From Thermoanaerobaculales bacterium (GTDB lineage: Bacteria > Acidobacteriota > Thermoanaerobaculia > Thermoanaerobaculales > Sulfomarinibacteraceae), in NCBI GenBank assembly GCA_021107705.1, contig JAIOSJ010000176.1, positions 1 through 46,161 of the forward strand: a stretch of 46,161 nt of DNA, given 5' to 3'. Under the pieces are notes generated by a model. That model was not told the DNA's origin. It ran no database searches and was given only the letters and a program-made list of their open reading frames with translations. A program made the position numbers and the translations under genes. This document shows, piece after piece, positions 14,460 through 18,659 of this stretch. Each line of letters starts with the position of its first letter. Within the stretch, counting starts at the first letter, position 1.

Positions 14460-15003
14460 CGGAAGCGGTCTCCACAGAGGGGTGGTCGGCGAGGGCGAGA
14501 TGAATTTCCCGCCGAGCCGCCGGAGTAAAGGGGCCCATTGTCACGGGGCCCCGCCGTTGGATTGCTCTCTCGGCGGCAGCCTCGGCATCCTCCTGCAGGC
14601 GCCCCGCTCGTCGCATTTTGAACCCATCCCCGTCGAGATGGACCGGTGCATGGCTTCTTAGTCGCCCGTTCATTATGCGATTACACAAGTATTGCAGCGA
14701 ATCCAGCCCTTTCCCAAGACCCGCAGTGAGGAGCCGAAAATCCTCGCCATAGAGTTCGCCGCCCAGATGCTCTTCCGCTTCTTCGATGCGCGCCCTAATG
14801 TCAAGGTCTCCGGCGTTAAACGCCTCCCGCAGAAAGAGTCCCAGGACCGCAACTGGGTCGAGAGCGGCTTCGATCGTCACGACCGCCGGGCTGTCCTCAA
14901 TCACCTCATACTGCAGTTCCTCGGTCCGTGCACCGAGCGCCAAACACGCCTGGTTCAGACATTCGTCAAGGGACCCACCCAAAAAACGTTCCGCGCCGTT
15001 CAT
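14407..15003 (-). CDS. Jag/KhpB RNA-binding protein (KH-R3H)
   Basis: Jag-N-like start, LGKGLDSLQYLCNRIMN KH core, R3H region GPFTPAARREIHLALADHPSVETASDGEG; located between mnmE and yidC. Confidence 0.92.
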   Translation of the reverse strand: MNGAERFLGGSLDECLNQACLALGARTEELQYEVIEDSPAVVTIEAALDPVAVLGLFLREAFNAGDLDIRARIEEAEEHLGGELYGEDFRLLTAGLGKGLDSLQYLCNRIMNGRLRSHAPVHLDGDGFKMRRAGRLQEDAEAAAERAIQRRGPVTMGPFTPAARREIHLALADHPSVETASDGEGFLKQVVVRPFRLR

Positions 15004-16661
15004 TATTTTTTCCTCTTTCCGCCGCCCCCGGCTCGCTTCCGCTCACCGATGAGACGGAGGGTAATCTCCTGTTGGAGAATCGAGACCACATTATTAGTCA
15101 ACCAGTACAGCACAAGCCCCGCGGGGAACCCAAGGAACATGATGCCGAAGACCAGGGGCATCATCCGCATCATTTTCATCTGCGCCGGGTCGCCGGCCTG
15201 TGGCGCAAGACGCTGCTGCAACCACATGGTCGCGGTCATGAGGACGGGTGTAATGTACAGGGGGTCCTTGGCCGAAAGGTCTACGATCCACAACATAAAA
15301 GGCGCATGGCGCAGTTCGATCGCGTGCGAAAATAGCGTGTAGAGCGCAAAGAGTAACGGCATCTGCACCAGCATCGGCAAACATCCGCCGACCGGGTTAA
15401 CGCCTTCCTCTTTGTACAGCGCCATCGTCTCCTGGTTCATCTTTGCCCGCACTTGCGGGTCCTTTTTGTTCTTCTTGTACTTTTCTTGAATGGCCTTGAC
15501 CTTCGGCTGGACCTTCTGCATTCGGCGCATTGACACCGTGGATTTGTGCATCAGGGGAAAAAGCACAATCCGAATCGCAATCGTCAAAAGGACAATGGCA
15601 TAGCCCCAGTTTCCGGCCCAGCCGTAGATCCAGCGAAGGATTTTCAAGAAGAAAACAGCAATAGGATGAAAAATGCCGAAACGAAGCGTATCTTCCAGGC
15701 CACCACCCTCGGTCTTGAGAAGATCAAACTCTTTCGGCGCCGCAAAGAGTTCGCCGAAATAGTTGCCGGTTTTTGACTTCAAGTCGCTCCTCAGGACGGC
15801 CACGGTCGTTGTTTCGCCATCCGCGTCGATCTCGTCCAAGCCGAGGGGAAGGATATGTATTTCGTCGATTTCCCCCGTGGTGCGAAAGACATTGAGAAAA
15901 TACGTGTCTTCAAACCCGACAAAAAGAAGATCTCTGCCACTGAGGCTCATGGCCGCGTCGATCTTCTCACGGCGATAGGTCTCGCGCTCTTCTCGTGTCG
16001 AGACCGTGACATCTCCCCATGTCGAAAAGCGATTGGCTCGCTCCACCGCCCCGGTGTTCCGCATCCCGGTACCAAGGCTCAGGGCGCCGGCCCTCATCGC
16101 ACCAAAGGACTCAACTGACACCTCAATGCCGTACCCCGTCGATCCAAGCTCAATAGTCTTGATGACGGTGTTTCCGGCGCCATCCGACCAGGTGAAAGAG
16201 GCCCGCCGTTCGCCCTCCTGGTCGGCCTTGTAAAGTCGATTATCCGGTCCGTCAGCAAAGACAAGTTGGAGCGGAAGCGTGCGCTCCGGGTGTTCCGCCG
16301 TCTGAACTAAGTCCAGTGGCTGCTTTTCGTCATCCGTAAAGCCATTGAGAATAAGCGCCGTCACCGCGGCGCCCCGGTTCGTCACGTGGACGTCCATCAC
16401 ATTGTTGTTGAGATGAAGCTCGTGAACGTCGGTGTCGGAAATTACGCCTTCTACCCCATCGTCCTCGCCCAACACCGGAAGGTCTGCGTATTCTTGGGCC
16501 GCCCCTTCTCTTCCCTGGGGGGCTTCTTCTTCCGTCGCCGTCGGTGCCGGTGGTCGCTGCACCGGTTTCGGTGGCGGAAAAATGACCGTCCAAAGAGCAA
16601 AGATTATCGCCGACAGGACGAAGGCAATCAGAATTCGTTTCTCCATCGACACAGCACTCAC
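15003..16661 (-). CDS. yidC: Membrane protein insertase YidC (with large periplasmic domain)
   Basis: MEKRILIAFVLSAIIFALW; GWAGNWGYAIVLLTIAIRIVLFPL, MQKVQPKVKAIQEKYKKNK, NPVGGCLPMLVQMPLLFALY. Confidence 0.98.
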   Translation of the reverse strand: MSAVSMEKRILIAFVLSAIIFALWTVIFPPPKPVQRPPAPTATEEEAPQGREGAAQEYADLPVLGEDDGVEGVISDTDVHELHLNNNVMDVHVTNRGAAVTALILNGFTDDEKQPLDLVQTAEHPERTLPLQLVFADGPDNRLYKADQEGERRASFTWSDGAGNTVIKTIELGSTGYGIEVSVESFGAMRAGALSLGTGMRNTGAVERANRFSTWGDVTVSTREERETYRREKIDAAMSLSGRDLLFVGFEDTYFLNVFRTTGEIDEIHILPLGLDEIDADGETTTVAVLRSDLKSKTGNYFGELFAAPKEFDLLKTEGGGLEDTLRFGIFHPIAVFFLKILRWIYGWAGNWGYAIVLLTIAIRIVLFPLMHKSTVSMRRMQKVQPKVKAIQEKYKKNKKDPQVRAKMNQETMALYKEEGVNPVGGCLPMLVQMPLLFALYTLFSHAIELRHAPFMLWIVDLSAKDPLYITPVLMTATMWLQQRLAPQAGDPAQMKMMRMMPLVFGIMFLGFPAGLVLYWLTNNVVSILQQEITLRLIGERKRAGGGGKRKK

Positions 16662-16686
16662 CCCCGATGCCCGCGCACCACGTAGA

Positions 16687-17187
16687 TTACTCTATTCTCG
16701 CGGCTCGCCGAAGCCTCTTCAGCCCCGCAAGATAGTCCCCTTGTAACTCAGGCCAGGGCACCGATTCACAACCTCTCCGGACATTGACCACGAGATCGAC
16801 GCCAAGCCCGGAAAGCGCTTCGGAATTGAGTCGAAAAAGCTCTCGAATACGGCGGCGACATCGCGTTCTCACGACGGCCGAACCCACCTTTCGGGAGGCC
16901 GTAATGCCCAAACGACAGCATCCGAGAACGGACGGCCTTGCAAACAACACAAGGTATCGCCCAATCACTCGCTCGCCCTCTCGGTATGTCAATTGAAAAT
17001 CAGCCCGTCGCTGAAGACGCTGCTTTCGGGTCAGGCGCCTGTTTGTCAGACGCTGACGCGTTTGCGCCCCTTCTTCCGCCGAGAATTCAAAACTCTCCGC
17101 CCCGTCCGAGAACGCATGCGAACCCTGAAACCGTGTTTTTTCTTGCGCCGCCTGTTGTTTGGCTGGAATGTTCTTTTCATGATTCAT
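16687..17187 (-). CDS. rnpA: Ribonuclease P protein component with N-terminal extension overlapping rpmH
   Basis: RnpA core [37 protein letters not shown] and [26 protein letters not shown]. No in-frame ATG, GTG or TTG between codon 1 and the RnpA core, so the ATG at 17187 is the likely start. Confidence 0.9.
17046..17180 (-). CDS. rpmH: 50S ribosomal protein L34
   Basis: Not in the ORF track (short). Minus-strand translation: [44 protein letters not shown], a full-length 44-aa L34, in a different frame inside the rnpA ORF. Confidence 0.97.
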
Positions 17188-17211
17188 TACACTCCGTCTA
17201 TCGAGCGATAC

Positions 17212-17354: not shown

Positions 17355-18659
17355 ATGTCTATTTGGTCTGAACTACAGCCGCTCCTCCGCCAAATGATCG
17401 GAGATGAGGATTTCGAAACCTGGATTTCTCCTCTCCGGGCGCATAACGACAAGGACCAAACGCTCACCCTTTCGAGCGCAAATCCAATCGTCCTTGACTG
17501 GGTGAGAGATCACCTCTTAAGCGACCTCGCGGCCGTCGCGCGCAGTCGCTATGGCAGGACCTTTCGCGTTGTGTTGGTCAACGAAGAACAGGCAGAGCAC
17601 ACAAAACAACCGGTGACCACGGGTACGCCACCGCTCATATCCCAGCAGCCTTTAACCCCAAGTTTTTCATTCGACCGTTTTGTGATCGGGCCGTCGAACC
17701 AATTTGCCTGCGCCGCCGCGAGAGCCGTGGCCAACGGTCCTGGAGAAACTTATAACCCCCTCTTTCTCTATGGGGGTTCCGGTCTCGGCAAGACCCACCT
17801 CCTCCATTCCATTGCCCATCAGTCAATCAAGATCAATCCCGCCGTAAACGTCGTTTACATGACAACCGAACAGTTTGTTAATGACTTCATTACCTGTATT
17901 CAAAAAAAGAAGATGGATCTTTTCCGCCAAACCTTTCGTGTCGTTGATGTTCTCCTTCTTGATGATATTCAGTTCATCGCGGGAAAAGAACAGACGCAGG
18001 AGGAGTTCTTCCATACGTTCAACACCCTCCAATCGTCCGGTCGACAAGTGGTGTTCACCTCAGATTCTCGTCCGGCCGACATTCCCGGTCTGGAAGAAAG
18101 GCTCCGATCCCGTTTTCTCCAGGGTCTCATAGCAGACATTCAGCCGCCTGATCTCGAAACCCGTTGTGCCATCTTAAGAGAGAAAGCCCGCGCCATGGGG
18201 CGTGAACTGCCCGAGGATGTTGTTCTCTTTATTTCCCGCAAAGTAAAAAAGAATATTAGGGAACTCGAGGGCTGTTTAAACCGTACCCTCGCCTACGCTT
18301 TGTTGAAAAATGTTCCACTCACAACCGACATCGTTCGCCAAGCCTTGTTTGATTTACTTCCGGATCAGAGAGAAACCAACCCGACCGGCATCCTTCGCTT
18401 CATCGCCCAACACTACGGCGTCCGAGTCGCCGACATCAAGGGTCGCTCAAATAGGCCCTCGATTGTCTTGCCACGCCAAGTAGCCATGTATCTCGTTCAT
18501 GAAATTTTGGGTGTCAGTTACGCCGAAATTGGGCGTATTTTTTCCAAACACCATTCGACAGCAATGTACGCTGTCGATGCCGTCGAAAAGAAAAGACGGT
18601 CAAATCCTGATTTCGACGCCACCCTCACCTCTTTCACCGAACACTTTCAGAGTCACTAG
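17355..18659 (+). CDS. dnaA: Chromosomal replication initiator protein DnaA
   Basis: FVIGPSNQFACAAARAVA, LFLYGGSGLGKTHLLHSIA, LLLDDIQFIAGKEQTQEEFFHTFN, domain IV LPRQVAMYLVHEILGVSYAEIGRIFSKHHSTAMYAV. Start at MSIWSELQ. Confidence 0.98.
   Translation: MSIWSELQPLLRQMIGDEDFETWISPLRAHNDKDQTLTLSSANPIVLDWVRDHLLSDLAAVARSRYGRTFRVVLVNEEQAEHTKQPVTTGTPPLISQQPLTPSFSFDRFVIGPSNQFACAAARAVANGPGETYNPLFLYGGSGLGKTHLLHSIAHQSIKINPAVNVVYMTTEQFVNDFITCIQKKKMDLFRQTFRVVDVLLLDDIQFIAGKEQTQEEFFHTFNTLQSSGRQVVFTSDSRPADIPGLEERLRSRFLQGLIADIQPPDLETRCAILREKARAMGRELPEDVVLFISRKVKKNIRELEGCLNRTLAYALLKNVPLTTDIVRQALFDLLPDQRETNPTGILRFIAQHYGVRVADIKGRSNRPSIVLPRQVAMYLVHEILGVSYAEIGRIFSKHHSTAMYAVDAVEKKRRSNPDFDATLTSFTEHFQSH

Follow-up and report, generated by a model that had tools for sequence, protein, structure and literature searches.

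An rpmH gene nested in an extended rnpA frame of an acidobacterium, with a probable ribosome site in common

Background

In the stretch of acidobacterial DNA analysed here (46,161 nt; hereafter, the window), the gene for ribosomal protein L34 (rpmH) lies entirely inside the reading frame for the RNase P protein (rnpA), in another frame. The question raised by this locus is where translation of RnpA begins: at an ATG just upstream of the rpmH start, at a CUG near the rpmH end, or at both.

Results

Anatomy of the locus

The features of the locus are listed below.

17192..17195, minus strand: Shine-Dalgarno (SD)-like GGAG, common to both starts (from the sequence and its retention in relatives)
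17185..17187, minus strand: proposed rnpA start ATG, at offset -7 from the rpmH start
17046..17180, minus strand: rpmH, ribosomal protein L34, 44 aa (PF00468, E=1e-19), wholly within rnpA
16687..17187, minus strand: rnpA, RNase P protein, extended frame, 166 aa (PF00825, E=1e-26)
17050..17187, minus strand: codons 1-46 of rnpA, the N-terminal extension, whose DNA also encodes L34; disorder predicted, stops avoided
17047..17049, minus strand: codon 47, a CTG that shares bases with the L34 stop (CTGA); alternative start preceded by a weak SD
17032..17034, minus strand: codon 52, also a CTG; the other near-cognate alternative start
16711..17034, minus strand: conserved RnpA core (PF00825, profile match)
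15003..16661, minus strand: yidC, the next gene (PF02096, PF14849)
17376..18659, plus strand: dnaA, divergent neighbour (PF00308)

The first-pass annotation had placed a full 44-aa L34, in a different frame, inside a 166-aa rnpA frame, with the rnpA ATG (17187) 7 nt upstream of the rpmH ATG (17180). This agrees with the coordinates (rpmH, 17180-17046, lies out of frame and wholly within rnpA, 17187-16687) and with both family profiles, PF00468 matching L34 over its full length (1-44/44) and PF00825 covering RnpA residues 52-159 of 166. The window rpmH is the sole L34 copy of the genome. No ATG, GTG or TTG was found in the window rnpA frame after codon 1 and before the core, as had been claimed; as for the rare alternatives proposed with it, CTG is present (codons 47 and 52) and no ATT occurs at codons 47-51. 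The GGAG motif (17195-17192) lies 4 nt 5' of the rnpA ATG, which is short for an SD, and 11 nt 5' of the rpmH ATG; the SD-like sequence precedes the early rnpA start and not codon 47. Most relatives have GTGAT upstream, which could partly be an extended SD, and the window has GTAAT with the ATG still kept.

The gene order, for which names were taken from translations (rpmH, rnpA, yidC and dnaA from domain profiles), is presumably parB-parA-rsmG-mnmG-mnmE-jag-yidC-rnpA/rpmH, with dnaA-dnaN-recF-gyrB-gyrA on the opposite strand. The gene set had been judged not to look like that of Thermus; the nearest DnaA sequences carry the names Holophagae bacterium and Thermoanaerobaculales bacterium, and the host is an acidobacterium, probably of Thermoanaerobaculia. 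Note that yidD is absent between rnpA and yidC (window 16661-16687), where the gap is just 25 nt. An Rfam search around the locus returned no RNA family, the folding energy of the leader was unremarkable (z=-0.08), and the 16S 3'-end pattern searched for in the host genome (for the anti-SD) was not found.

Start codon and reading frame in family f1

The comparison within family f1 covered 19 members with the locus; relative to rpmH, rnpA occupies frame 2 in 11 of them (the window included) and frame 1 in 8. At -7, 11/11 frame-2 genomes and 0/8 frame-1 genomes have an ATG (Fisher p=1e-5; the relatives share ancestry, and the locus counts are not independent). Among 175 distinct loci, which were not selected by this pattern, the -7 ATG was restricted to the same 11 and was found in 0 of about 160 others. 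The layout GGAG N4 ATG N4 ATG of the window is retained in the relatives, and the four spacer bases between the two ATGs vary (aatc, aacg, cacg, tatt, tgtt, tatc, aacc). In the tree of RnpA and L34, the frame-1 members group together (86/76), and the frame-2 genomes form no resolved single group.

Seven of the eight frame-1 members have an rnpA TTG 11 nt before the rpmH end, and the eighth has an in-frame ATG 41 nt before it. As for the frame-2 members, 5/11, including the window, have no later ATG, GTG or TTG; an ATG overlaps the rpmH stop in G013 and G018 (TGATG), and a TTG stands at about +14 in G006, G012 and G016. The family as a whole does not conserve these later starts. The remaining case is G007 (locus L042), which retains the -7 ATG and has a TAA at extension codon 11; here an ATG follows rpmH at a distance of 2 nt. 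A stop in the extended frame of a close relative had been named beforehand as evidence against the extended start; it occurs in G007 alone, together with this replacement start. Judged from its sequence, G007 is a natural loss of the nested start, in which the extension would be dispensable, and the replacement fits an extended start in the others, since the broken extension goes with a conventional start. Because of the stop in G007, the TGATG of G013 and G018 and the TTG of G006, G012 and G016, not every relative requires the extension.

The same later starts favour a view in which both kinds of start are used, the extended RnpA being made from the -7 ATG and a short isoform from CUG 47 or 52, or in relatives from an ATG or TTG where one is available: G013, G018, G006, G012 and G016 keep an open extension together with a later ATG or TTG. 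However, the window genome offers no evidence of a second isoform, and the later starts lack conservation within f1. We regard this view, which is compatible with our preferred explanation, as possible but doubtful.

Selection on the L34 codons and the nature of the extension

A T in the third position of an L34 codon creates a stop in frame 2 if the next two bases are AA, AG or GA. At synonymous sites of L34 with this risk, T was found in 1/89 cases in the frame-2 f1 genomes, compared with 49/240 at other sites and with 8/62 at risk sites of the frame-1 sisters (p=0.004 for 1/89 vs 8/62). A test with alignment columns as units was chosen to blunt shared ancestry: T ever occurred in 1/11 risk columns vs 16/22 others in frame 2 (p=0.0008), and in 4/7 vs 20/25 in the frame-1 sisters (p=0.33). 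For an f1 gene, the probability expected for this frame to be free of stops across L34 is about 0.18; 10/11 were observed open. These codon patterns indicate that selection on L34 codon choice holds the second frame open. The expectation of an extended frame open and constrained in relatives was thus borne out in openness and in the avoidance of stop-risk T, and failed in G007.

As a protein, the extension looks disordered in the AlphaFold model (46 aligned sequences), in which pLDDT was 46-62 for residues 1-50 vs about 90 or more for the core. The invariant extension residues are M1, E4 and R19, which would be explained as the start codon or as sites where L34 fixes at least two of the three bases. 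Because the invariant residues lie at the start or at bases fixed by L34, a function of the extension itself is without support.

Parallel lineages

It had been suggested that the nesting may be an independent or wider occurrence, and two further lineages, f18 and f34, which represent two other orders of Acidobacteriota, have the same nesting. In f18, a TTG or GTG at -7 with rnpA in frame 2 and open was found in 9/10 members with rpmH, and 7/9 nested members are without a usable later ATG, GTG or TTG. The distance from the rpmH stop to the core changes in steps of 3, i.e. in frame, in f18, which alone is not diagnostic. Stop avoidance in f18 was no greater than in GC-matched controls (1/151 at GC3 > 0.85) and was excluded as evidence there. 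The tenth member, G383, is without the nested start (TAG at -4, TTG at +29); its near-identical rpmH locus is found on two contigs (L185, L187); strain variants or assembly contamination are possible.

In genus g71 of f34, a start at -13 was found in 32/32 distinct loci (ATG in 24, GTG in 8), the rnpA frame was open in 32/32, and T at stop-risk sites was found in 0/289 vs 165/776 elsewhere (p=1e-25). No ATG, GTG or TTG follows rpmH in 28/32, and L34 ends in TAA or TAG, so that there is no CTGA. Near-cognate codons are present in a few loci (CTG or ACG some 20 nt ahead of the rpmH end, rarely ATT or ATC) and are poor start candidates. The extended start is hard to escape in g71, and an extended start in the window gains credibility from this. 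In a pattern scan, almost every g71 genome had RTG at -13, as did some further genera of f34. The single GGAG ahead of both starts, which the first-pass annotation had noted, stands for f1 and does not extend to the other lineages, which apparently have one SD-like sequence per start: a GAGG-like sequence lies ahead of each start in several f18 members, and many f34 loci have a separate SD-like sequence for each. As a further observation, a near-invariant inverted repeat, TTTTCACTT...(A/G)GTGAA with a variable loop, lies directly before the rnpA start in g71 (L269-L292, L300-L316), some 35 to 16 nt 5' of the rpmH start codon; it may form a small hairpin or act as an operator.

The -7 DTG matches in f36, f46, f57 and others were rejected; rnpA is in another frame there or has conventional starts. 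A scan of 297 Acidobacteriota genomes for the Thermus spacing (-4) gave a single match, G144, which was also rejected, a TTG overlapping the rpmH stop as well; this locus (L268) has ATGCATG at rpmH with the rnpA frame open and is the sole such case in the 297 genomes. The different orders, the different offsets and the many intervening families without nesting point to three separate origins in Acidobacteriota.

CUG codons and a leader frame

RnpA could instead start from CUG codon 47, coupled to the L34 stop (CUGA), or from CUG 52, in which case the frame from the upstream ATG would be incidental. The rpmH stop lies within CTGA in 11/11 frame-2 f1 members and in most of f18, and genus g11 of the sister family f2 appears to start rnpA at CUG: there the rnpA frame is closed until 8 nt ahead of the rpmH stop and is without any ATG, GTG or TTG, and a CTG at +16 has GGAGG or GGGGG 4-6 nt upstream. 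The g11 loci (L004, L005, L006, L010-L014, L016) suggest a conserved CUG start of an essential gene, and CUG initiation of rnpA probably exists in the order shared with f2. However, a CTG is forced wherever L34 ends in NNC-TGA, as it does in 7/8 frame-1 sisters, the position of the codon-52 CTG is not conserved among relatives, and g71 manages without CTGA and mostly without a later conventional start. A CUG start would be recognized by an SD before the CUG and a frame closed upstream; in the window the SD before codon 47 is weak (-2.1 kcal/mol) and the frame is open upstream. A CUG start also leaves unexplained both the -7 ATG, conserved only where rnpA is in that frame, and the stop avoidance upstream of codon 47. 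Exclusive use of a CUG is thus weakened for the window, and we consider it unlikely.

That the -7 ATG opens a short leader peptide or decoy frame tuning rpmH translation, its continuity with rnpA being incidental, is suggested by G007, which keeps the ATG with a 10-codon frame, and by two AUGs near enough to compete, but is very improbable given a frame open into rnpA in 10/11 frame-2 genomes of f1, in 9/9 of the f18 genomes that have the -7 start and in 32/32 loci of g71, and given the stop avoidance in f1 and g71, a leader having no need of the rnpA frame.

Discussion

Proposed translation of RnpA and L34

The rpmH gene of the window is nested in rnpA, the upstream start is conserved together with the rnpA frame, and stops are avoided in the extension. 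Our preferred explanation, in which we have considerable confidence, is that translation of RnpA begins at ATG 17187, at a ribosome site that also serves L34, and yields a protein with a disordered extension, in a Thermus-like but independently evolved arrangement. One GGAG would serve two AUGs 7 nt apart; initiating ribosomes would split between them, and the same 135 nt would be read in two frames to give L34 and an RnpA bearing a roughly 46-residue disordered N-terminal extension. We infer that both starts are used and that the shared site would couple the dosage of L34 and RnpA; the extension may have little function beyond staying open.

For the phylum as a whole, we think it likely that nesting of rpmH in rnpA is not peculiar to Thermus, arose about three times (at -7 or -13, with ATG, GTG or TTG), is kept by selection on L34 codon choice, can be lost once a late start appears, and makes two-frame initiation a general means of linking RNase P protein with ribosomal protein synthesis. 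The repeated independent cases and the sister lineages without nesting make a comparative system. They raise the questions of why L34 and RnpA should be co-initiated, how ribosomes are apportioned to two AUGs separated by 7 or 13 nt, and how the gene of a ribosomal protein can accommodate coding in a second frame. Many acidobacterial annotations may give RnpA a wrong start.

Comparison with known systems

Nesting of this kind had been noted as described for Thermus, and PMC9841429 does describe the Thermus rnpA-rpmH site: according to its account of Feltens et al. (2003), the site is AUGGAUG with one SD. The same 2022 paper gives Thermus rnpA-rpmH as the only described bacterial case (PMC9841429), and our literature search, which covered papers outside subscription, found no report of the nesting in Acidobacteriota. 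As far as that account goes, the window resembles Thermus in that rpmH lies wholly inside rnpA in the same relative frame with an N-terminally extended RnpA (predicted for the window), and in one SD motif with two near-coincident AUGs (known for the window from its sequence). It differs from Thermus, as described there, in the offset (4 nt in AUGGAUG, 7 nt in the window, 13 in f34) and in phylum; some acidobacterial lineages further differ in their GTG or TTG starts, and f18 and many f34 loci in the separate SD-like sequences noted above. The ambiguous starts AUGUG and GUGUG of Escherichia coli (for example pqiA and tamA; PMC9841429) likewise have two overlapping frames at one initiation site; however, the start codons themselves overlap there, whereas in the window two core genes start 7 nt apart. 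The ordinary bicistronic rpmH-rnpA, found in most of the phylum including the frame-1 f1 members, shares the gene order and close packing, but its rnpA begins near or after the rpmH end, unlike that of the window. By its sequence-defined features, the window would belong with the Thermus nesting as an independent and apparently recurrent variant.
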